The notes below the pieces were generated by a model. That model worked only from the letters and a program-made list of their open reading frames with translations, made no database searches and was not told the DNA's origin. Positions 9,596 to 61,414 of a DNA stretch of 64,000 nucleotides are shown here, one piece after another. Position 1 is the first letter of the stretch. Each line of letters opens with the position of its first letter. The position numbers and the translations under genes were made by a program. The stretch covers positions 1-64,000 of the forward strand of contig FMBT01000420.1 in assembly GCA_900095095.1 (NCBI GenBank). Reading direction: 5' to 3'. This DNA comes from Fragilariopsis cylindrus CCMP1102. Taxonomy: Eukaryota > Bacillariophyta > Bacillariophyceae > Bacillariales > Bacillariaceae.

Positions 9596-12500
9596 CTAGA
9601 TGATGTCGCCTTCAGAACTAGATGATGTTGCGTCGTCTATTTCTAGTGGAGGCTCGTTATCATCCAATTTGTCAGATCGTTCTGAAGATGGAAAACTTTC
9701 GTTATTAATTCCATCGATGATTGGTAATTTGAATTCTCCTTCATTCTCCTTTCCAGAACCAGATGTTGCGTCTACTTCTAGTGGAGGCTCGTTATCATCC
9801 AATTTATCAGATAGTTCTGCCGTTGATTCTTTCTCATTTTTTCTATCTTCGATTCCATCGACGCTTGGTAATTCGGATTCCCAATTCGTGATGCTTGATG
9901 AATTATTCTTATTCTTCTTTACTACCTTCGATTTTTTGCCTGGACTAAATAGACTCCAAATATTTCCAGTCACTCCAGTCTTTTCTTTATCATTAACTTT
10001 GACACTATTTGGATAGTCTTTTGATGGCGAATTTTGATTCGATTCTTTTTGTATTGTGTCCGTAGCATCGATATCGTCCACCATATCGGAATCATCCTCG
10101 TTGTTTTCCTCGCCCATATGATCACTTTCGTCGTTACTTTTCATTAATGACCTCGTTAACCCAGAAAAGACTCCTCTAATCGCCGTTTGTGCGGGATTTT
10201 TGGATCTTTCCAACTGAAACTCAAGGATCTTTAACTTCGTATCTCTGTGCATTAATTCTTTGGATTCGGCCTCAAGCTTTTGCTCCAGTACTGCATTATG
10301 CTGCTTCAAACTCTTTATCTGTCGTTTTATTCCTGACTCATGTTCACTAGAGTCGATAGAGGTGGTATTCTTCTTCAAAGAGTCTATCTCACTTTCAAGA
10401 CCGCTGATCATAAGCTCCAATTCTAGAACCCTTTCCTGTGATATCCTCCCTTCCTTTCTCGCCTTGTCTAGCTGTCTTTTGCGTTCTTTCCTATCCTTGA
10501 GCAAAGTGATGTAGTCTGCTCCTTGCTCTCGAGCTCCGAGTTCCCACTTTGCATCACTGAGCTCTTCTTGTAGATCCAAAATAATACCTTGTTTTTCCTT
10601 CAGTCTTAGCGAATTGTTATACTGCAATTCTTTCAGCTTGTCTTCCAGTTCTCTATTCTCGTCATCCAATTTGCGTAATTCGGCATTGACCGCTTCGATC
10701 CTTGCTCTTTCTTCCTCCTCGTCGACTCCATTTCCCATCCACTGCTTCTCAGCGAGATCCAATTTTTCTCCCCGCACTAGCTTATCAAGTTGTTGCTTTT
10801 CTTGCATTATTTTCATCATTTCGGTCTGCATGAAGGTTATCGTCTCGTCTTTTTGTTTCATCTTCTTCATCGACGTCTCTTTGTTTGTAGTAAGTTGTGT
10901 CTCTAGATCTCTTAACTCGATCTCCCGTTCCTGTAGCTCTTGTTTGACTTCTTCATTTTCCGAGAAAACAACAGAAATCTCTTGTTTCTGTTTCCTAGAA
11001 TGCTCTTCTTGATCAACGATTTTTTCACGTAGTTCTGCTATCTCAACCTCCAATTCCAATTCCAATTCGTCATGGGTGCTAGCAGTAGAATGTAAGCTAT
11101 TCGCCGTTATATCAATGTTTCGACGAGAAAATTGACGAGTAGACGCTTCTAAGCGATGTTTTTGCTGTTTGAGTGATCGGATTTTCTGTTGTGAAGCTTT
11201 GTCATCAGAATTCCTTTGTTGCTTCAATTCGTCTAACTCCTTTTGCAATACTTCGTTAGATATACTCATCTCGGTCATAATCTTTCTTAGCTCCTCATAG
11301 CGTTCTTGTAGGAATGATTGTTCATTCGCTGTCATTTCAGCTTCCTGCTGACGAAGACGGTCGTTTTCTTTTTTAATTTTAGTATTTCATGTTCCGTTTT
11401 CAAAATCTTCTCCTTCAATTCGTCAATGCTTGTCCTTGTATCGCATTCTTCGTGGTCGGATTCCTCTCCACGAGAATCCGAAGCACATTCTTCCTCTTTC
11501 ACAATTTGAGACTCTTTCATTAATCTAAGTTCCTCTTTCTCCTGTTGAAGCAAAGTTTCTCTTTCACGGATCTGTTCTTCCATTTCAAGTAGAAATAGCT
11601 CCCTGTCGTCAATTTTATGTTCTCGTTCTTCGAGTTCAACTTCGAGTTCTGTCAATTTGCCATCACGTTGTTTGGAAGAATCATCGTCAGAAATTTCTTC
11701 GTCATGGATGATGACACTAGCCACAGGTTTTTCCTCTTGTAATACTTCAATAACATCCTCCATTTCATTCATTTCTTCCTCTATCTTACAGAATTCATTT
11801 TCCGCTCTTTCTAATTTTTCTTCAAGATATTCAACCTTATCCAGTTGTGCATCTACTGCCTCTGTTAATTTCTGAATAAGACTATCCTTCTCAATAACAG
11901 CATCTTCGTACTCCTCAATTTCCATTTTCAGTTCATACGATTCCATTTGTGCTATTTCTAATTCTCTTGTTAGTTCAAATGATGATGACGATGGTGGTTT
12001 TCGTTTTTGTTGTTGCTGCTGTTGTTGTTTCGATACAGCAAGTTTCAAAGATTTTTCGTTTTCGTTTAACTGTCTTCGTATGGTAGCTGTTTCATCTAAT
12101 AATGCAGCATTCTCTTCCTCTAAAACATCCATACGTCGCTGATCCGTTTTCAATGAATTTCTTTCAGCATCAGGAAGTTTTTTGCTGTTCGCAGATTTCT
12201 TCGTTGATCGTTGCTTCGAACGAGTTGAGCGTGATGATTGAGTGGTATCAACACTAATATCATCATCGTCGGTACTACTAATGTCAGACTTTTTCTTCTT
12301 CTTTTTCTTCTTTGATGATTTCTTTCCTTTTTTTGCAGCTTCACTTCGTACCGACATATTGTCGTCATCACTGTCGTGCCCCATAGTGTTGCTACTATCA
12401 TTATTCATTATTGCTGTTGTTGTTGCTGACACTGATTCTTCCTCCTTCTTTTTCTTGACGCTACTTCTTGCGCTCCTCACCGACGACGATGACGCATGCC

Positions 12501-12933
12501 TTGTTAAATTAGTTTTCTTTTTGTTGCTACTGCTCCTTATCGACGACGATGACTGCTGTCGTGTCAAATTAGTTTTCTTTTTCCCACTACTGCTCCTTAT
12601 CGACGATGTACTTTCATCAAAGTTCAAGACGCTGTTGTTGTTGTTGTTGCTGTCCACATTATGAACGTGAACATCACCTACTGGCGGCCGCTGCTGACGA
12701 TCTATTTTCTTATTAAAAGATGTGGATACAATATTCTTGACTTTTTTCATCACTCCCTTGCTAGTTCTACTGGCACTACTTTTCATCGATTGATCATCAT
12801 CATCGTCGTCATAGTTATTCTTGACTGCTGACGACCGTCTTTTGTCCTCGATCTCAGACGTCGGTCTTGCTGGTAATGCAGTTGACGTGCTTCTGCTAGC
12901 CTTCTTGATCACCCTTACTTTGCTGCTTCTCAT
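9596..12933 (-). CDS. long coiled-coil protein of unknown function (one gene, frame change at 11369-11374)
   Basis: Two open frames that abut (12933-11332 and 11335-9596) together read as one protein of about 1110 aa. The first part is basic and Ser/Lys-rich (residues 1-260), with three near copies of a block rich in SSSIRSSS and KKKTNLTR, then heptad-rich coiled coil. The second part continues the coiled coil without a break in character and ends in an acidic tail with a repeated SDKLDDNEPPLE motif. At the junction the codons TTA AAA AAG form an A6 run: one extra A, or a -1 slip, leads straight into KENDRLRQQEAEM. I do not recognise an orthologue. The look is that of a cytoskeletal, centriolar or Golgi scaffold, which is inference. 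Confidence 0.7.
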
Positions 12934-14108
12934 TATAATATTGAAATTTGGAGAATTATTGGAGGAAAGAAGAAATGAATGCTACGACAATTTATCGTCG
13001 TCTTCTTCTCGTTAATGTCGTCGCTGTCGTCGCTGTCGTTTCTGTACAATTGTATATGAAGATCGATGATTCGCTTAGTACCGGTAGTCTTGGCGTTTCA
13101 AACGAAAAGAATCATGTGGAAAACTGCAGAAAATCAGAACTATTTTATCAAAGCACAAAAAATGACTAAATTTCCACGATACAGCCTAATTTATGTCCGT
13201 CAAAATATATGCCCCGGCCTCAATTTTATGTCTTGATCCAAAAAAAAGATTTGTAGTAACGCATCATGTCTTCGCAGCGCCAAAGTATTGTTAGTATTGT
13301 ACGGTAGTCTTATGTCATGTTCGTGTATTACTGTGTATCAGATTTAGATTTTAACATCAAACATAATGCATACACAGTGAGATTATTCCACAGCAATTTT
13401 TTACAAAATAAGCTAAGTGGAGCTTTGTCTCTCTACTATCCATCAAGAATTCAAATTTAATCATCAGCAGCAGTGTGCCGGATACAATATTGCATTTTTG
13501 TAGTGTGCATCAGTTTCTCCTCCCTCTTGTAATTGGCAAGTTATTATTAAACTATGCATAGTCTTGACAATAGGCAATGTGTGTGTGTGTGTGTGTGGGA
13601 ATCATTCATCTGTTAGGTTGACATGAAATATTTTAGCTTACTATATTGTACATTGTAGTAAGCTGTGTGGTTGTGTCACACATTTTAATCTTGCTATTCA
13701 CAAAAGGTTGTATATACTACTACACAGTACCAATTGTATTTATTTGATACATCACTTTTTACTCGCCTATGATGGAACAGAAACTGTGTCTTGGGTGCTG
13801 TGTAAATGGAGAGTTTATTATGTTCGGCAGGCCTCATAAATATATACTACGTAAGGACACAATGGTTGGTATGGTGTGTGGGAACTACTGTATTTGAAAA
13901 GTGTCTGAAATCCCTCAAAGGGTGCTTAAATACAATTGTAATGATTTTAATGCATTATTATAACTTGTTTATTACTGTAAATTGATTGATTATATCTTCA
14001 ATTCGATTAGGATGGGATATTCAAAGATAAATTTGAATTAGATATAGAAATAGAAATTGTTTTTCTTGATTTATACGTACACAGGCAGTTTTTTTTCAAA
14101 TTTTAAGT
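12934..14108. other. gene-free stretch
   Basis: About 1.2 kb between two minus-strand genes, including the promoter of the coiled-coil gene. It contains a (GT)n microsatellite at 13579-13597. No protein-like frame or RNA gene is visible. Confidence 0.5.
13579..13597. repeat. (GT)n microsatellite
   Basis: Nine to ten GT units in gene-free sequence. Confidence 0.85.
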
Positions 14109-25294: not shown

Positions 25295-28200
25295 ATGATG
25301 CAAGCGGCGCAATTAGCGGCGGAAGCGGCAATGCGAGAGGCTACCGCAAGAGACAGAGAAGCTGCGCAGAGGAATAATGGTGGTGGAAATGGAAATAATG
25401 ATAATGATAATGACGATGATAATGGAGATTTACCGAACATGATGGATATGATGAATGATTCTAATTCTTCCTTCATGACAGATTCATCGGAACAGATGAT
25501 GGGACAGATGGGATTATTACGTGCCCTTCAAAATGATACAGTGTTTGACAACGGGGACGGCGGTGGACAACAACAGCAACACCATCAACAACAACAGCGA
25601 CGACAAGCACAGCATCGTGGAAGTGGAGGAGGAAGCGGTGGACAACAACAAGATAATACTAACAATAACAGTAATAGTAACAACAATAATAATATGCTAT
25701 TACAAGAAATGAGTATGATGGGTGTCGATCCGAATGATCCAGACAGTGTACAAATGTTTTTACAACTGCTACAACAAAGAGAACAACAAGAACGTCAACA
25801 AGCGGGAATGAATGCACGTCCCGAAGAACATTATATGACAATAGCACAAAATGGTATGTAACAGAATATAAATACGTGCGCTTTATTATCACTAAGAGCT
25901 GGTACAGCAATGCAACGCGTACCAAAGGCAGCAACAAACAAATTACTCAAAAACAATCGAATCGAATTCATATATACAACACATACCTTGTACCTCATCT
26001 TTTATTTTCTCTCTTAACTTTCATGATGAATAAATTAAAAGGCATGATATTGGAAGCAACGAAAACTGTCACGGGATTTCCCCCGGATTCTCTCTTAATG
26101 ACATCAGCGTAAGTTTAAAAATAAAATTGAATAAAGGATCGAGTCTGTAACTATTGACTCAACTATTGACTTATATGGGCTCTCACATCTCTTGTCATCA
26201 CACACCACATTTATTTATCAAACTCAATATCGATTAATACAATAGGTACGAGGATATATACGAGGATGACCTACCCGGTTTGTTAGCAATCAAGACTCAC
26301 TTTTGGGATAAGGGTAATCCTGACGTAGAGGCATATATTCGACGGCGTTCCGTAGAAGGAGATTGGATATTCCTCGTTACGAAGGCGGTATCGTACGTAG
26401 AACAGCCCATACCGGGTATTATTCTAGTAGAACGGCGTGTAGCCACAGCCTCAGCGCAACGTAGTGAGTACGAACATTATTACAATGATAATCACAATGA
26501 TGATGATGATGACGACGACGATAATAATAATAGTAATGCTGAGGCTCTCATGAAAGCAAGGTATTTTAATTTAGTCACTAGGATATGTGCCATTCTCGTC
26601 CAGTCCGTAGAGACAGCACAAGAAATGGAGTCCGCATCAAAACTCAATTCAAATAATAACAATAATAATAATAATCAGCAAGGGGGAATACAACCAAACG
26701 ACAACAACAACAACATACAAAAAGATGATAGTTCCAACCAAATGGAAAAAGATGCGGCGGCATATCAAGCTATGCTATTACAACAACAACAACAACAACA
26801 AAATTCGACTACTAAGAATAATAGCGGCGGTTTATCAGATGATCCTACGATGAGAAATGACCCGTTAGGGCTAATCATGAAAGTGGCGGCCGCGGGTGGG
26901 ACTTCTAGTAAGAGTCAAAACCAAGCGGCAGCAAAATTGGAGCAAGAGATTATGGAGCGAGTGGGTGGTGCAACAAAAAAAGAAAGTTTTGATCCGTTCT
27001 CGGTATTGGAAGATGTTAGAGAAGGAGTCAGATTAGATCTTGGGATGATTCGATTAGGTTGTGCTGAGATTCGGCTGATGAAGATGATGTTGACGGGAGA
27101 ATTAACTATAGAGGAATTGTGTCAACTAGTATTCCGTGCTCTCAGTTGTGGTGTCGGTCTCGATGTTACGATCGATCAATTCGTTATAGAAAGGAAACAA
27201 AATAATCCAACAGGATATGCGATAAGATCGGTCACACCGTGTATATCTGTAGTCAATCTATCCTATACATATATGGGAAACTTCGCCGTAGATTTATTCT
27301 GTGAAGTTATCGATATGGATCGCTCACCTTTGAGGACAATCGATGTTAGCTTTTGTGGCTTGGAAGATCGAGGGATTCTAGCACTATCTAAGGCACTAAC
27401 GAGACGAAAAATAAAAGGAATAGCACCTTTGCGTGGAATTATTTTATCAGGAAATTATATATCAAAACGAGTAGCAGCAGATTTGGGACGGGCTCTATCG
27501 CCGCATCAGAATAAAGAAGAACCGCCATCGTTTCCGGATAGTGCAGATCAAACCAATGGAATTCGCAGTGATATGTTTGGCAACTCTAAGTCGGATGAAG
27601 GCAATGAGTGTGAAAAGTACTTCAACAAAGACTTTGGCCTGCAAGTACTACATCTGGGTTTGGCACTGAATGATTCCGAAGCCGTTAGTCAACTACTCTA
27701 TGGGCTAGGACCATTATGTCCTGTCAAGGAACTTAGTCTTACCTCGAACCACATAGGTCTCGAAGGCGTGGAGTGTATTGTAGATTTTCTAGAAGGCAAA
27801 AAAATAATTCAAATTCGAAAAGATAACAAAACCAAGCCAGTTATGCCATACTTGGACCGCTTAGACTTTTCCAATAACAAAATTGGAAATGAAGGTCTGA
27901 AGAAGCTCACCAGAGTTTTGCAGAGACGTGGAGCGAAGCATCTAGTAGAATTGCGGCTATCAAACAACGGAATCGCGCATAGTGGAATTGAAACGATGAT
28001 GAATAAGTTATTACAGCATAATCTAGTTAGCTTGACTTTGGACAAAAATGGTATTGGAGATCAAGGGTGTCAGCTGATTGCAGCATCTCTGCTGAGCATG
28101 AAGTGTCTTGCCCGTCTGAATCTTAGCTTCAACCAGATCGGAAGTCGTGGTGTGAATAGTCTTATGCGGAGTCTTGTAGCGTGTGATTCAATAACATATC

Positions 28201-29423
28201 TTGGTCTTTCTGGAAACATTATGAAGATTTCTGGTGCGGTTGCTCTTGCTTTTACCCTTGCCCAACATCCCCGATTAGAAGAACTCGATGTCGATAACTG
28301 TTGCCTTAGTCAAGCTGCTCAATGTCATATCATCGCTGGGATAATATCAAATAGATGGGTGCCTATGAAGAGAATGAATGGCTTCGAAGCAGGGCCGCCA
28401 ATGGTTGCACTTGGTGCATTACAAATATCGGCTCAAGGCTTGAGTAACGAAGAATGTTTTCGAATAAGAAAAGATGAGCAAATGAAAACGATACTACAGT
28501 GGATGGAGTCAAATCGTGCCAAAATGGGGAGAAGAGATCCTAATATGCCAGCTCAAGCGGACATGAACAGTCAATATCTGACTCCAGATTTTGTCCAAAG
28601 CATGAACGATGTAGAAGGCATCCCATCACAAAATGCTTACCTTCGTTTACTCAGTTGGCTCAGTCGAATTCCTTTCGATGAAGATGAACTGATATCACTC
28701 AGAAAATACTTTTATGACTCCGACGGTTTATCCGAAGATCGCGGGAGTGATGGTTATGTCAATTTGAAGCTACGAGGTGACTTACTTGCAGCCCTAGAAA
28801 GTGATGTAGCTGATGAAATTAGAGGCGAAACTCCGATGTTGAAAGAGTACGATGGCTCGGTCGGCTTCGATATCGACCGAATCGCTCCGGTAGAAACTGT
28901 GTCGGAGTGGGGATACATGAAAGGAGAAAAGTTTGATAAAGCAGCACGTGTGTTAGCTTCAGAATTAGAGAAAGAACAAGCGCTGGATGACGTAAAAAAT
29001 CACTTCAATATCGATGCAATGGAGGACAATCGCTTTTCGAGCGATGAGGATTTTAACGATAACGGGATCAACCGAAAGCGAAGAATATTCTCTTCGGCAG
29101 AATTCCGAGATGGGAACTCCCGAGGGAGTCCACCAAGTCCATCGTCTACCTCCTCAACAGAAAAACTGCATAGCTTACAAAGTATTGTAAACAGCGGCTC
29201 TGAGCGAAGCTCGATGAGTCAAGGCGAAAGAGAGATAAAGCGTGTTCCTCTGAAAGCGAGAATAACGATGTTCCCACAGTTCGAGATGAAATTGGAGGAG
29301 CTCAAGGCTACGGCAACAGAAATGATTGAATCAGAAGAAGATCCCGAACAACAAGAGATAATACTAACCCAGTACGCCGAGGCTTCACTGACGATTCTTC
29401 GGCAACTCAGTATCATTGTATGA
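25295..29423 (+). CDS. Q/N-rich protein with ribonuclease-inhibitor-type leucine-rich repeats, exons 25295-25853, 26042-26108, 26246-29423
   Basis: Three exons join in matching phases (GTATGT and GTAAGT donors; acceptors AAAAG and ATAG), giving 1267 aa to the TGA at 29421-29423. The N-terminal ~185 residues are Gln/Asn/Met-rich, followed by a conserved block with LLAIKTHFWDKGNPDVEAYI and IPGIILVERRVATA. After a second Asn/Gln-rich linker comes a run of at least seven LRRs of the RNH1/NOD type (LTSNHIGLEGV, LDFSNNKIGNEGL, LRLSNNGIAHSGI, LTLDKNGIGDQGC, LNLSFNQIGSRGV, LGLSGNIMKISGA). The C-terminal 300 residues include a helical segment with YLRLLSWLSRIPFDEDEL. There is no NACHT P-loop. It is followed directly by a receiver domain in another frame, probably part of the same protein. 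Confidence 0.8.
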
Positions 29424-29894
29424 ATAACGGACTCGATGGGTGGAGGCAAGGCTCGATGAAGCGTAAGGTCTTGATTGTTGATGATAGTAACGTGACTCGA
29501 AAACTCTTATCTCGAGCTTCGAGAGGGCTAATTTTATCGTTGATTCTGCTGAAATGGTGCCATAGGCGTAGAGAAGCTGAAACGAGCCATATACGATATT
29601 GCTTTCATGGATATCGACATGCCAGTCATGAATGGATTCGAGGCAACGAAGAGACTCAGAGAATGGGAGGATGCAATGCGACCGGGTGTCCGCCAACCGA
29701 TTTGCGCTCTCACGGCGGCACACGTAGATGATTTCGAGCGTAGTGAGTTGATGAAATTCAAGGAGGCTGGGCTAGATGTGTTCGAGAGCAAACCGTGCAA
29801 CATTCCAAGACTGTTCAAAGTCGTTGATGATGTCTCGCCCATGTTTAGTGATTTATCTATCAGCGTTATACAACAAGAAAGGAGTCAAGCGTAA
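29420..29894 (+). CDS. response-regulator receiver domain, probably the C-terminus of the preceding LRR protein
   Basis: The sequence starts MNNGLDGWRQGS and then shows every signature of a two-component receiver: the acidic pair in VLIVDDSNVTRKLL, the phosphoacceptor Asp in IAFMDIDMPVMNGFEATKRL, Thr in ICALTAAH, and Lys in VFESKP. The frame changes at 29518-29519 (TT) and 29552-29554 (AAA). One extra base at each point links the two halves with a normal helix-strand segment (FIVDSAENGAIGVEKLK), so errors in the assembly are likelier than decay. Its first ATG overlaps the LRR stop codon, and a single added base would fuse the two. A separate gene without its own promoter is unlikely. It could be the output end of a phosphorelay. 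Confidence 0.75.
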
Positions 29895-30405
29895 CAGTGG
29901 AATAAAAACTGAAAAGATTCTGTACTGCTGCGCCTTCAATGTTAAATGAATGAATTGGGTTCCCCACATGATATCAAATCATAAATATAAAACAATTTTG
30001 AGCAACTAAAATCGACTATTTTTGTAGCTGTTTTAACTTTAACGCATAGTTATTAGTACTGTAGTCGCACATGAAGTTATAGTAGAAGTAGAAAAAAGAG
30101 CGAATGCATCTCTTTATTCTTACATCTATGAGTTTCCATCATTGTATCTTTGGAGTTTGTCTGGACTGTCCGCCATATTTGTAACGTGGAATAACGAACT
30201 TCGTTGCAACAATCCTTCGTACAAGGAACTAAGCTAGAGTGAAAACAAAAATAGACTGTAATACAATAATACGTCAATTATAATATGAGCTAAAAGAAAT
30301 AATTCGACAAATTGTGTTTAATAATATATATAAGAAAATCTATTAAGAGCGGATTAAATTATTAGATAACATTGAAAAATGAATCAGATTAGGAAGAGGA
30401 GGTTC
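29895..30405. other. convergent 3' region
   Basis: This spacer lies between the receiver-domain end (+) and HSP70 (-). AT-rich, with no coding signal. Confidence 0.5.
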
Positions 30406-32437
30406 TTAATCGATTTCTTCAATGGTTGGTCCACCGGCTGGATCGTCACCAGCAGGGGCACCTGAGGCTCCACCTCCAGGCATACCACCCATATCAGGCA
30501 TACCGGCAGGCATACCTCCGGCTGCGCCGCCTCCCATCTTTTGAAGGATTGGCATAGCAATTCCTTCGAGTTCCTTTTGCTTTTCTTCGTATTCTTCCTT
30601 TTCGGCAGCAGGGTTGGCATCTAACCAACTAATAGTTTCATCAATCTTGGATTCGACGGCAGTCTTGTCCGCAGGGTCCATCTTGGCTTGGACTTCATCG
30701 CCACTGAGGGATCCCTTAAGGGAGTAACAGTAGTTTTCAAGACCGTTCTTGGATTCAATACGGTTACGGTTGGCATCATCTTCGGCCTTGTAGGTTTCGG
30801 CTTCGGAAACCATACGTTCGATTTCATCTTGTGATAGACGACCCTTGTCGTTGGTAATAGTAATCTTTTGTTCCTTTCCGGTCGACTTTTCCAATGCACT
30901 AACGTTCAAGATACCATTGGCATCAATGTCAAAGCAAACATCAATTTGAGGTTGTCCACGAGGCATAGGAGGGATTCCATCCAAGTTGAATTTTCCGAGG
31001 ATGTTGTTATCCTTGGTCATGGAACGTTCACCTTCAAAGACTTGGATCAACACACCTGGTTGGTTATCAGCGTAGGTGGAGAAGGTTTGGGTCTTCTTGG
31101 CAGGAACGGTGGTGTTTCTCTTGATTAGAGTAGTCATGACACCTCCAGCAGTTTCAAGACCGAGGGAAAGTGGGGTGACATCAAGAAGTAATAATTCGGA
31201 AAGCTTTTCGGACTTGTCGGCACCACTTAAGATAGCGGCTTGGACGGTAGCACCGAAGGCAACAGCTTCATCAGGATTGATGGACTTGCACAATTCTTTG
31301 TTGTTGAAGAATTCAGAAAGCATCGATTGGACCTTAGGAATACGGGTGGATCCACCAACGAGGACAATCTCGTCAACTCCAGCCTTGGAGATCTTCGCAT
31401 CTCTCAAGACCTTTTCACATGGTTCCATACATTTCTTGAAATAATCCATGTTCAAATCTTCGAATCGAGCACGGGTGATGGTAGCATTGAAATCAATACC
31501 GTCAAACAGGGAATCAATTTCAATGTGTGCTTGAGTGGAAGAGGAAAGAGTACGCTTGGCACGTTCGCAAGCAGTACGAAGACGACGAAGCGAACGGTTG
31601 TTGCTGCTCATATCCTTCTTGTGCTTTCTCTTGAAGTCGGTCAGGAAATAATCCACCATACGGTTATCGAAATCTTCTCCTCCCAAATGGGTGTCTCCAG
31701 CAGTGGCCTTGACTTCGAAGATACCTTCTTCGATGGTCAACAGAGAAACATCGAAGGTACCTCCACCCAGGTCGAAAATAAGGACATTCTTTTCATCTCC
31801 TTTTTTGTCTAAACCGTAAGCGATAGCGGCGGCGGTTGGTTCGTTAATAATACGAAGGACGTTTAATCCAGAAATGGCACCAGCATCCTTGGTGGCTTGA
31901 CGTTGGGAGTCATTGAAGTAGGCAGGGACAGTGACGACAGCGTTTCTGACTTCCTTTCCTAGGTAGGCTTCGGCGATATCCTTCATCTTCATTAGGACCA
32001 TCGAACTGATTTCTTCCGACTTGAAATCTTTTTCTTCACCCTTGTATTCGACACGGATGATGGGGGTTCCTCCGGTTCCGGAGATGACCTTGAACGGCCA
32101 ATGCTTCATGTCTGATTGGACCGAGGCATCCGAAAATTTACGTCCGATTAAACGCTTCGCATCAAAGACGGTATTGGTGGCGTTCATGGCAGCTTGGGAC
32201 TTGGCGGCGTCACCGATCAGACGTTCCGTTTCGGTAAAGGCAACGTACGATGGTGTGGTACGGTTACCTTGGTCGTTGGCAATGATTTCGACACGGTCAT
32301 TTTGCCATACCTGAAAAAGGAAAAAAAGGAAAAAAGAATCATGTGAGAGAATGTAACAGGAAGATAAATAGAAATCTCTTGATGATATTGACAAATATAA
32401 TTAAATATATATTAATAAACTTACACCAACACATGAA

Positions 32438-46838: not shown

Positions 46839-49800
46839 TTAAAACTCCTCAAATAGTGCTTGTTGTGCAGCTGTGATGTTAGGTTTGTTGCATGGAGGCT
46901 CGTTTTCTACATGTCTGTACGAATCGAAGTGAGACGCATCCAATGCATCCTTAATTTTAGGAACCCATGGGGCAGGGATTTTCTTTCTTAGTAACTTATC
47001 AACGTCAATAACGCTGAACCAATGATGATCCCGAACATCCATATCTTTACGAGCGAGGCACCCGAATCGATTTGCTTGACGTCTTACGATTAATCGCTGA
47101 ATTAGATCCTGCGCTGGTTCCGTTACCATACCGCCGGGAGGGAAGGAATACTTGACTTGTACGATCCGCTTAAACAAACTTACTTGGTCTGTTCCGTATG
47201 AATAGAATGGAGAACGTCCGACAAGCATCTCATAAATCAATACCCCAAAGGCCCAGTAATCGACACCACTGTCGTGACCCTTTGAAAGAATGATCTCTGG
47301 TGCGAGGTACTCTGGTGTACCACACAGTGTGTAAGTCTTCTCAGAAACGACTTTCGCAAAACCAAGATCTACAAGAACACAGTACCCCTTGGAATCGATG
47401 AGTATATTCTCGGGCTTCAAATCACGGTACGAAATACTTCGACGATGTAAATGAGATAAAGATTCTAGGATACAGGCCGCATAAAACCGTGAGTTACCGT
47501 TGGGGATACCATCTCGCGTTTCTGTGTGGATAACAGAAAACAACTCTCCTCCTTGGACGAGCGCGATCAACATAAACAAATGACGATCATCCTGGAAGGT
47601 CGCAACAAGATCGACCACGAATGGATGTTTTATGTTTGCCATGATATTCTTTTCACGAAGGACACCCTCCACTTGATGATGACCGATAATTTCACGTTTG
47701 CTCAATTGTTTCAATGCGTACGGAGTGCCGTTCTTCTTGTGACTAACCAACCAAACCTTACCGAATGTTCCAACACCAAGAATACGGAACTTAACAAGAT
47801 CCTTAAGACGGATGGTTTTATTTAAGGTTGCACCCTGCATACTAAGCGGCTTACCGAGACGTTTGATGTCACCAATTACACTTTCGATGTCTGCACGTGT
47901 AAGGACACCGCATGTTGTATCGGCTTCAACTTTCACTGTAACGGGAGACATACTTCCTTTTGGTTCCTTCAACCATAATGCACCAAAGTAATCGGCATCC
48001 ATCAACGTATTAACTTGTCCCTTGGAGCTAGATGCTACGAATCGACCCTCACGAATTATGTATAGATTCTGTTCAAAGGGTTTGCCCTCTTCGGCAAGGA
48101 TTGTTCCAGCGGGGAAGCTACGTTCCGATAACAATTCAGTAAGGCGGGTCATTTCAAATGGCTGGAATTCGGAATGAGCAAAAACAGGAACACCTTCTAA
48201 CGTTCTTTTCTTGGCAGCAACATCAATAAGATGTTGAAGTGGACCCAAAACAATTTCGAATGTTTCACGTGACAAACAAAGGGTTGTACAATTGGTAACG
48301 GCTGTAATGTTGGCCGAACGGGCATCGCCCGTTAGTAGAGCACGTTCTCCAAAATAATCCCCCGGTCCTATAACCTGATCTACGTATTTACTATCACCAA
48401 ATCCAATATCATGGACCTTGACCTTTCCCTCTCGGAGGATGTAAAAGACCTCACCAACATCTCCCTTATTGATAAGTCGTTCTCCTTCGGGGAATGTAAC
48501 CGATGTTAACGCATCAGAGATACGTAATAGATCCGATTCTGGCATATCCGCAAGGAATGGGACCTTTCGTAGGACGTCATGAATATCCTTTTGTTGACTA
48601 GCATTGTTATTGGCCAACATGTATCGGAAGGTACGTTGATCGACCTTCCACAAGCGACATGTGGTGTTGGCTAAACATGTAGCGGCACGGGGACAATTGT
48701 AGAGCAATGCTAATTCTCCGAAGGATCCACCCCGACCGCATGCACCAACATGATTACCATCCACAGCAAAGCTAACATGACCTTCATCGACAACATAAAA
48801 GAAGTCTCCAGTTTCTCCCTGTTTAATAATGACAGTTCCTGCAGGAACTGTATCCATGACCATAGCATCGATCAATAATCGTCGTTCTTTGCCCGACAAA
48901 GAAGCGAAGATAAAATTATCGACTAAGGAATTGTCAATGAATTGAACGGCGGAGTCGGACTTGGGAAAATGTGGAACATCAAATTTTTCCGTCAGGTCAA
49001 CCTTCTCAGCAAAGATATTTTCAGCACGCTTTTGCTTCTGCCTATTCCGTGCTGTTGCGTGAGTCTTGATTTGTCTTTCTCGTTCTTCGGCGTCCGTTAC
49101 CATGGGCTGGACACCACCATCGTCTGCTGCTGCTGCTTCCATTTGTTGAGGTGGTGATGGCGGAGGAACAGCCGCTTGTTGTGGAGGAGGTTTCGACTGT
49201 AAGAATTATAAGCATTATTATTATTATTATTATTTTTCAGTTTTGTTTATTTTTTGGAACAAAACAAGACCGACGACCGCGGTCAACAAATAATAATAAT
49301 TAATTGTTGGGGGTGTGGCATGTGTAAGCGAACGAGTAAGGTAGTTACAGCAAGCAGATAGGAAGAATGAAAGAGGAACAATCCTTTGTGTGAGTTTAAG
49401 TTATATACCAGAGTATGGAAGTGGAAATGAATGTTGTTACCAGAAAAATACGAGATCTTTCGATGTCATAATTCAAACTCGCACGACGATAAAATATCAC
49501 GCCGGATTAGCTTGTTAGATATTATTATTATTATTTCAGGAAGGGTTTTTTTAGAGGTCAAGAAAAACGAGCACAACGAGTGATTTCTAACGCGTTGTAC
49601 CGACGGCGGTATGAGTTGAAAAACAACTAAAACTTGCATTTGATGTATTCTTAGGTGGAGCCTCGACTTTACTAGACTTCTTTTCTGACTTTTTCTTCTT
49701 AAACGTGTTCATAAAACCTTTCATGGTTGCGATTTATTTGTTGTTGTTGTCTTAATGATATGTAGTTGAATATCAGACGGTAAAAGCGAACAAAATAAAT

Positions 49801-58146: not shown

Positions 58147-58766
58147 AAAGTTTTGACTGTTGTCGTTGTTGACGGTGGTGCCCCCCCCCCCCATAGTATA
58201 GATACAGTGTCTGTCGGTATGATCATCGTTTCTTAGAAACTACAAAAATTGAATAAATTGAGATCCGATTTGGCTATCTTTCCACCAGTACCGATCATTT
58301 ACAATTGCTTTCTTACCAAACTAATCCAGGCTTTACCCTATCCTAATAACTAATAACAAATAAGTTAGTTTTCCAATGTATTTTAGTATTACAATTATTG
58401 TAGTAGTTTTATAAATTGTCTAGCATTCATATCGTGATGATTCATTCGGGCTATTCGATTGCGCGCTCAGCTCCATAAAGCGCGCATAGTAACGTCTGTT
58501 CTATGTACGTTCGGTGCTCTTTCATTTCCATCGATTTTTTTACGTTTAGATTTTTCGATGTGATGTAAGATAGTTTTTTTTTAGAACGATTGTTGATGAT
58601 GATGTGATGGGCTCACATTTCACATTCAAACATCTGCTGTAGCAATAACAAGCACAATAAGCAAGTACTCACATACACATCTCCAATTGACTCGACACCA
58701 CAATTGGCTCACCCATTTACCAACGTCACCACAAATCATAGATAGTTCCAATAATCTAATTCTATA
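58147..58766. other. intergenic region
   Basis: A 620-base spacer. It holds a poly-C run of about 10 at 58182-58191 and a small hairpin GCGCGCT...AGCGCGC at about 58464-58488. No coding signal. Confidence 0.45.
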
Positions 58767-61414
58767 ATGACAAGGACTACGCTGTCGTTTGAGGTATGGA
58801 CTGCTGTTCCGTTAATCCTCGTCCTATGCTGCTATTCCTCTTTCTGTGAAAGCTACACATCCAAATTGCATCTTCCTGCATCCTTTATCCGTCCAACAAA
58901 TCTAAAAGTTGATACACCTGTATCAACGGTCCGGTGTTATGCTCAAAAAAGAAAGGCAGATTTTTCCGTAGTAGGACAAACTGCTCGAAAAAAGAAATCA
59001 GAATTTGCCGTTGTAGGCGAAGAAGATGACGACGACGATGATACCCAAGACGGCAACGATGAAGTTGATTTCCGTCAACGAAAAATTGGTGGTGGTGATT
59101 TGTTAGTTGTCAACGAGAAGCCTTCTGAAGACGTTGAAGATTTCTATTACGAAGAAAGCCATTCTGCGAGTACCAGTAGTAATATTAATAACAATGTCTA
59201 TAATCCCAACAAAAACCATTACCCCGAATACTCTGTTCTAAGACCAGGAACGGTTGTCCGTGTCCAAGTGGGTGATTTGGGTTTGGCACGAAAGGCTTGG
59301 AAGAAACGACGACGAACTGGATCGCCCCTGTTAGTTCCATGCAGTATTTTGAACGTCGACCGACGGTCAGCAGTGCGATGGAATTTGATATATTTGTTAG
59401 AAAAATTTGGCAGACCAAGCAGCAAAAGACAGGCAGGAATATCTATGTCCTTGAAGGACTTGGCCCTTACGTATCGAACACATCTCAAGTCGTCAATGGC
59501 ACGGCAGGCTCAGGAACTTGGATTTGAGTCGACTCGAGATATGATCAAAAAATTATTTAATAAAAGTATTCAAGAATCGTATGGTGTGTATTTCGAAGAG
59601 AAAGAAGAAGAAAAGGAGAATCAACAGAATGACAATGATGATGTCAGTGAAACTTCCACCATCAATATGTTATATTTGACGGCCTCAACTTTTCGTCGCA
59701 AGGCTCAGCAACGTTCAGCTAACGCGCCTATGTTGCAATTCCGACCGCCGCGAGAGGGAGACTATGACAATACTGCTGTTTCAGACCCTATCGCAGGCAC
59801 CGCAGACAAGGATATTACTGCTGATGATACTGGTACATTGACCCATACGGGCTGGGTCCGAGCACGAAAAGAGGATAACAATGAATCTGGAGAAGAAGAA
59901 GCCCAACCAAAACTTCAACGAGAATTTACGCATCTTCCTTTGTCAGCATGCCTCCGTATCTCTCAAAAAGAGGATGTAGATACTGGACGTGTACACGAAG
60001 GGAAGATATTGGCTGCAATTGTTTTGATTACGATCAAAATGGAGACGGTGGTTCTCCTTTGTTGACATTATCCTTAAATGCGGCGGGTGGAGCCCGTCAA
60101 CGAATGAAGATTGTACCTGAAGGACGCGTTAAGGTATTAAAAGGAAAACCAGAACATCCATTTACCGACCTAGCTGTTGGCGATGGTCCATATCGCGCCA
60201 AGGTGGTTAAATTAGTAGGAAAGAAACAACGAGCTCTGGTCGACGTCGGAGTCGGAAGAGAACTTTCCAATTCGGGAGGGAAGACCGTGCAAGTCCTAGG
60301 AACTCTTCGATATCAAGATTCAGTCGAGTTAGCGGAAGATGACGATGACATCAATCAATCCGATATGTTTGGAGAATTTGACGATGAAGAAGACGAGGAC
60401 ACAGAAGATCTGATTGCAGCTACGATAGATGAGCTTGATATGCTTGATGTTAACGAGGACGATGATGAGGACGAAGAAGAAAGTTATACGGACAATATCG
60501 CTGATGAACTTTTATCCCTAAGAAAATCATCTTCCTTCGAGAAAGGTACATTTGAGGATGGCGAAGAAGAAGAAGATGTTTCAGATATGTATGAAGTCGA
60601 CGAGAATGGCGAAATCGTGATGAAAGCTGCTGCAGATGAAGAGGATGAGGATGAGGATGATTCCGAAGATGAGGAAGATGTTGATGATGATGCTGCTCAA
60701 AATATCTCGGAAAGTGAAAGTGGCGATGAGTACATTTCAGACATTTCAAACAACGAAATGGCAAGCTTATTCACAGAGAATGAAGACGGTTCTATCACGT
60801 ACACCGACCCTGACACTGGTGAAACCATGGACGTTAGTGAGGGTGACGAAGAATTTGAGGGTATGATGATGATGAAATCTTTGATAGATGACGATCTCAA
60901 CAAAGAAAGCGTTACACCGAAAGAACAATCAACAAAAGATGTAAACGAAGGCACGGATCAGGCTGCTGTGGTTTCGAATCGTAATAAGAAATTTAGATCG
61001 AAACGATTGCAGGTAGGTGAATACATCGACGTGTACGTTTCTAGTGTAACGGCACAATCCAATCAATTTCGAGTAACGACCAATCCATTGATTAAAGGTC
61101 AAAAAGCGAAAGATGTTAAGAAGGATGAAGGCATTACAAAGAAAATGAATCGTTTGAAGAAGGATGGAGGCTTGAACCGTATATACACCTTAACGGGAAC
61201 GGAATGCGATGGAATAGTTAAAGCAGCCTCCAAAACCGGTGACTGGGTGTATGTTCAACCTCAACTAGAAAATTTACCAGTTGGCATTGGTGAACTAGAC
61301 GGTGATAGTGAAGAGTTGAAAGGTCTCTCAGCCGGAGACAATGTTCGAGTTCGGATATCCGGTATCGACGAGGAAAGAGGCCAGTTATCGATGAAAGTTA
61401 TCAGCAAACTTTGA
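58767..61414 (+). CDS. plastid-type S1/OB-fold RNA-binding protein with acidic centre (frame change at 60022-60025)
   Basis: Two overlapping frames (58767-60065 and 59948-61414) read as one protein of about 882 aa; one extra T in the TTTT at 60022-60025 joins them as ILAAIVFDYDQNGDGG. The N-terminus is a signal peptide (AVPLILVLCCYSSFCESYTS), consistent with a plastid or secretory route. Two near copies of a short block (RKADFSVVGQ and KSEFAVVGEE) follow. The central part has VRVQVGDLGLARKAWKKRR. A second segment, FTDLAVGDGPYRAKVVKLVG with ALVDVGVG, looks like an S1/OB-fold strand pair, then a long Asp/Glu-rich stretch (about 250 residues). The C-terminus has a clearer S1 domain ending LSAGDNVRVRISGIDEERGQ and LSMKVI. 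A role in plastid RNA handling or translation is inference. Confidence 0.7.

Follow-up and report, generated by a model that had tools for sequence, protein, structure and literature searches.

Response regulators that carry leucine-rich repeats (LRRs) are on record in a eukaryote: according to an excerpt of PMC4758236, Physarum polycephalum has two of them. The same excerpt describes Dictyostelium RegA, in which a receiver is combined with a phosphodiesterase. Here we analysed a locus of the diatom Fragilariopsis cylindrus in a window of 64,000 nucleotides (the whole stretch of DNA under study, bases 1-64000 of contig C32), and the genome searched comprised 818 contigs with 67,884,144 bases. 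The predicted protein resembles the Physarum LRR response regulators of that excerpt in being eukaryotic, non-kinase and built of a receiver and LRRs, although it comes from a diatom and they are amoebozoan, and the two are likened by description, not by sequence, domain order or LRR class. It shares with RegA, as described there, a non-DNA-binding output in a eukaryotic response regulator, but the output of RegA is an enzyme whereas that of the diatom protein would be an LRR scaffold. In sequence, the diatom receiver is like those of hybrid histidine kinases and of CheY, while the kinase core is absent from the diatom protein. The ribonuclease inhibitor/NLR-type LRR proteins (1dfj; NLRX1 3un9) have the same LRR type and repeat motif, but the diatom protein has no NACHT match or known ligand and adds a linker and a receiver.

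A sequence-only reading of this DNA had described LRRs plus receiver as an architecture not known to be common, which is a fair statement, but the two cases in the excerpt of PMC4758236 stand beside it. The architecture is thus unusual with a eukaryotic precedent, since Physarum polycephalum is reported there with two LRR response regulators, and the diatom protein can be described as an atypical response regulator paired with LRRs. No paper on a diatom LRR-receiver protein was found by titles and abstract openings in a literature without most subscription journals, which is weak evidence.

The locus is best read as one nuclear diatom gene with exons at 25295-25853, 26042-26108 and 26246 to 29894 of the window (Table 1). 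The two introns lie upstream of the main exon; their splice sites were assigned by eye, and the joined frames were open both in the window and in the second haplotig, contig C551.

Table 1. Features of the LRR-receiver gene in the window (C32 copy)
Feature	Position	Strand	Evidence
Exon 1 with the start Met; low-complexity N-terminus rich in Q/N/D	25295..25853	+	Open frame; GT donor at 25854 by eye; joined frame open (window, C551)
Exon 2, short (22 residues)	26042..26108	+	Splice sites (AG acceptor, GTAAGT donor) assigned by eye; frame open after joining (window, C551)
Exon 3, LRR frame of the window, ending at TGA 29421-29423	26246..29423	+	Open frame; stop absent from haplotig C551
Leucine-rich repeats of ribonuclease-inhibitor/NLR type; bounds approximate, C551 protein residues ~570-912	27330..28358	+	Pfam LRR_6, LRR_1; motif register; PDB sequence matches
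Linker of ~365 residues, LRR to receiver	28359..29455	+	No Pfam family at E up to 1; low-confidence helix prediction at its end
One base absent relative to C551 after this site; LRR frame lost	29409..29409	+	C32/C551 alignment
Receiver piece 1, in the second frame, with beta 1, the acidic Asp-Asp pair and the beginning of alpha 1; the receiver itself begins near 29456	29420..29516	+	ORF 29330-29731; match C32:29420-29521, 97% to C551 receiver
Receiver middle piece, in the third frame, flanked by single-base absences two and three	29517..29552	+	C32/C551 alignment
Receiver last piece, again in the LRR frame: phospho-Asp, Thr, Lys, stop	29553..29894	+	Response_reg 1.3e-10; match to C551 receiver

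The Q/N-rich stretches claimed earlier for the N-terminus are present in the protein sequence, and the assignment of the LRR array to the RNH1/NOD type was borne out by the profile and structure matches. In the window LRR part, LRR_6 was matched at 1.3e-20 (72.2 bits, cut-off 23.4), so that the protein lies above the curated cut-off for ribonuclease-inhibitor-type repeats, and LRR_1 was also matched (Pfam). Within the 49 PDB matches of this part, ribonuclease inhibitor 1dfj was the best solved relative (phmmer, 3.3e-15), and dynein regulatory complex 5 and NLR proteins (NLRX1 3un9) were also present. Neither NACHT nor NB-ARC gave a Pfam match in the main exon (E up to 1) or exon 1 (E up to 0.01), and the protein does not class as an NLR. 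The receiver had been said to follow the repeats with no spacer, which is incorrect: in the C551 protein the final clear repeat starts at residue 885 and residue 1279 is the first of the receiver, with about 365 residues between the two parts. This linker contained no Pfam family at E up to 1 when the 1218-residue frame of C551 was scanned. A single-sequence structure model of the LRR part plus linker reached a mean pLDDT of 36.6, and the last 50 linker residues ahead of the first break were predicted to be helical at low confidence (pLDDT 47-65 in the last blocks).

A DNA search with window positions 28900-30100 recovered one other copy, in C551, with 99% identity; the other two matches were short (60 and 40 query bases) and lay downstream of the gene. 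Full copies of the locus in the genome search were two only, those of C32 and C551. In C551 the LRR array and a complete receiver are read in a single open frame of 1218 codons (L023:2401-6057), with Pfam matches to LRR_6 (4e-20) and Response_reg (4.5e-19; 69.1 bits, cut-off 30.2; profile positions 1-110 of 111); the latter is above the curated cut-off over the whole domain, as in a CheY-like receiver domain. After exon joining, the C551 protein has 1424 residues. Alignment with nine other receivers of the same genome placed the phosphorylation-site residues at D1287, D1288, D1331, T1365 and K1391. The earlier proposal of LRRs and receiver in one polypeptide therefore stands on this intact frame: the two parts are fused in one predicted protein, the frame being taken from one contig of one assembly.

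In the window copy, the receiver residues are spread over three successive reading frames, with the acidic pair in the first piece and the phospho-Asp, Thr and Lys in the last (Table 1). The genome-wide Response_reg search returned a window match containing two TGA and one TAA, the last piece alone scored 41.9 bits (profile positions 31-110), and the intact C551 receiver used as query recovered the window receiver in two separate matches with 97% and 95% identity. The sequence-only reading had thus listed the acidic residues, phospho-Asp, Thr and Lys correctly but had joined residues that the window scatters over different frames. It had also noted that the first ATG of the receiver overlaps the LRR stop; in the window the ATG at 29420 does lie over TGA 29421-29423, but in C551 it is an internal codon and there is no stop. 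Given consensus errors in C32, the overlap is probably an artefact.

This overlap, and the fact that a single-domain receiver is an ordinary kind of protein, would suit two separate genes, the receiver starting at its own ATG. Such an arrangement is barely credible and was rejected, as C551 has no stop between the LRRs and the receiver; in the window, too, a stand-alone receiver gene would fail, because the frame from ATG 29420 runs only to 29731 and lacks the phospho-Asp half. An intron across the break was also considered, on a donor-like and an acceptor-like site found by eye, and was dropped since it would delete the conserved first receiver strand and run into a stop. Chance or bacterial contamination was ruled out: the receiver is complete in C551 and sits in an intron-bearing gene among ordinary eukaryotic genes, those neighbouring it in the window being HSP70, a type III glutamine synthetase and a cyclic-nucleotide-binding kinase.

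Alignment of C32 with C551 located the damage. Single bases are absent from C32 after 29409, 29516 and 29552, all within 143 bases, and both the TGA and the two later frame shifts of the window are absent from C551; the remainder of the main exon shows no frame-breaking difference and one 3-base difference. Between the start Met and the first break there are 39 synonymous and 15 non-synonymous differences (pS 0.048, pN 0.005), 4 of the 15 lying in a low-complexity stretch at residues 35-36 where they may be misaligned. Judged from these substitutions, the stretch is constrained between the haplotigs. The receiver stretch has one substitution (29506), synonymous by eye, besides the three one-base absences, and no amino-acid change.

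Over the aligned parts of the contig overlap (window 2382-33707), C32 and C551 differ by 589 substitutions and 136 indels, and within those indels 34 single bases are missing in C32 and 29 in C551. The final 3.5 kb of C551 has 19 gap openings against 7 mismatches. A coiled-coil gene at 9596-12981 (-) of the window is read as overlapping frames of 549 and 596 aa with one base missing near 11384, and C551 has one 1073-aa frame there. The HSP70 gene at 30406-32400 (-) is intact in the window; in C551, two single-base absences near window positions 30429 and 30437 put VDNH in place of GGPTIEEID in its conserved C-terminal tail. Cytosolic HSP70s have an EEVD-like C-terminal tail. Both contigs seem to carry single-base faults, because similar one-base absences occur in the coiled-coil gene of C32 and in the HSP70 tail of C551, and gap openings outnumber mismatches in the last 3.5 kb of C551. 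For the FALCON/PacBio assembly of F. cylindrus, an excerpt of PMC5634323 reports on 13 fosmids, which have between 0 and 135 indels each and accuracies of 98.5 to 100%. C32 is probably an alternate haplotig of the PacBio assembly.

The three frame breaks in C32 are probably consensus errors; base-calling errors are favoured since decay should also have brought substitutions, and the receiver stretch has one, which is synonymous. It is quite unlikely that the window haplotype is instead a true allele in which three small deletions sever the receiver, so that an LRR-only protein is made here and the fusion from the other haplotype. The window contig itself reads so and the absences lie outside long homopolymers, but the receiver stretch speaks against it, since three one-base absences that break the frame stand there with a single, synonymous substitution and no changed amino acid, as do like faults in a second C32 gene and in the C551 HSP70, and the indels documented for the published assembly in the excerpt of PMC5634323. 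As a caution, frame breaks and overlapping starts in an assembled haplotig should not be equated with biology without a second copy or reads.

The best explanation of the locus, and one we consider likely, is a single fusion protein of about 1424 residues that would work as a phospho-switched LRR scaffold, the breaks in C32 being errors. One protein would contain the Q/N-rich N-terminus, the RNH1/NLR-type LRR array, about 365 linker residues and, at the C-terminus, a receiver of hybrid-kinase/CheY-like type. Phosphate would reach Asp1331 from the cell's histidine kinases and an HPt protein, the phosphorylated receiver would change, and binding by the LRRs and linker would be altered, which would make the protein a non-DNA-binding response regulator. 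Phosphorelay input to the receiver is plausible, because the phosphorylation site is complete and the genome has HisKA and HPt matches. Profile searches of the genome matched Response_reg 32 times, HisKA 20 times and HPt twice, haplotig pairs being counted, and the HPt matches were weak (28 bits, cut-off 24.6). The output is most likely changed binding by the LRRs and linker, as Pfam found no DNA-binding or enzymatic families in the scanned exons (main exon and exon 1). HisKA and HATPase_c gave no Pfam match in the 1218-residue frame (E up to 1) or exon 1 (E up to 0.01), and the protein does not class as a hybrid histidine kinase.

The fusion could also be real with a receiver that needs no phosphorylation and gives the LRR scaffold a fixed surface for docking or dimerisation. 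Histidine-kinase-independent receivers have been proposed for conflict systems (in an excerpt of PMC8195603), and no cognate kinase can be named for this protein; every phosphorylation-site residue is kept, however, and HisKA and HPt matches are present, and we regard this alternative as unlikely. A combination is very unlikely, namely that the species has the phospho-switched LRR scaffold while the window haplotype is a true allele without the switch, so that controlled and uncontrolled forms would occur in one cell. If expressed as read, the protein would give diatoms a response regulator that acts through an LRR binding scaffold, not through DNA binding or an enzyme, and would offer a concrete candidate route for two-component signals to protein assemblies in diatoms.

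Among the best 60 of 162 PDB matches of the receiver were hybrid histidine kinase and CheY receivers, e.g. 8phn, which is named a histidine kinase. CheY_Halo, PRK15347 and BarA were among the best 25 of 60 NCBIfam matches, with scores far below the model cut-offs. In the genome contig collection, 239 of 287 pattern matches were relatives; among the best 80 of the 239, query ranges lay at or near the receiver, and L074 alone reached back to query residue 605. The viral contig collection gave 3 pattern matches and no relative of the fusion. The fusion receiver stayed unplaced in a tree of 30 sequences, made up of 14 receivers from this genome and 16 bacterial ones of >95 residues taken from 18 loci chosen out of 80.

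Frames were read around 14 receiver loci of the genome (L042 in the wrong orientation only), with C61/C632, C184:152 kb/C755 and C278 outside this set. By eye the loci read were mostly hybrid-kinase-like, and the one that was scanned had HATPase_c. The C341 receiver protein has, by eye, an apparent LuxR-type helix-turn-helix at its end. In the protein at C384:68299-68670 / C409:19178-19549 (C384 copy read), HATPase_c and two receiver domains were matched and HisKA was not. By eye, the C384 copy has TSNDLMTPL at the phosphoacceptor region, and the protein is possibly a histidine pseudokinase. Kinship of the fusion receiver with the C384/C409 receivers by a common stretch was considered and dropped, a similar stretch occurring also in some bacterial matches.

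Elsewhere in the window, overlapping frames of 436 and 509 aa at 58755-61414 (+) have the appearance of a single gene interrupted near 60000, perhaps through another single-base fault or an intron, and neither had a Pfam match at E up to 0.001. The gene at 46839-49205 (-) is cGMP-dependent-kinase-like, with a protein kinase domain after three matches to the cyclic-nucleotide-binding domain.
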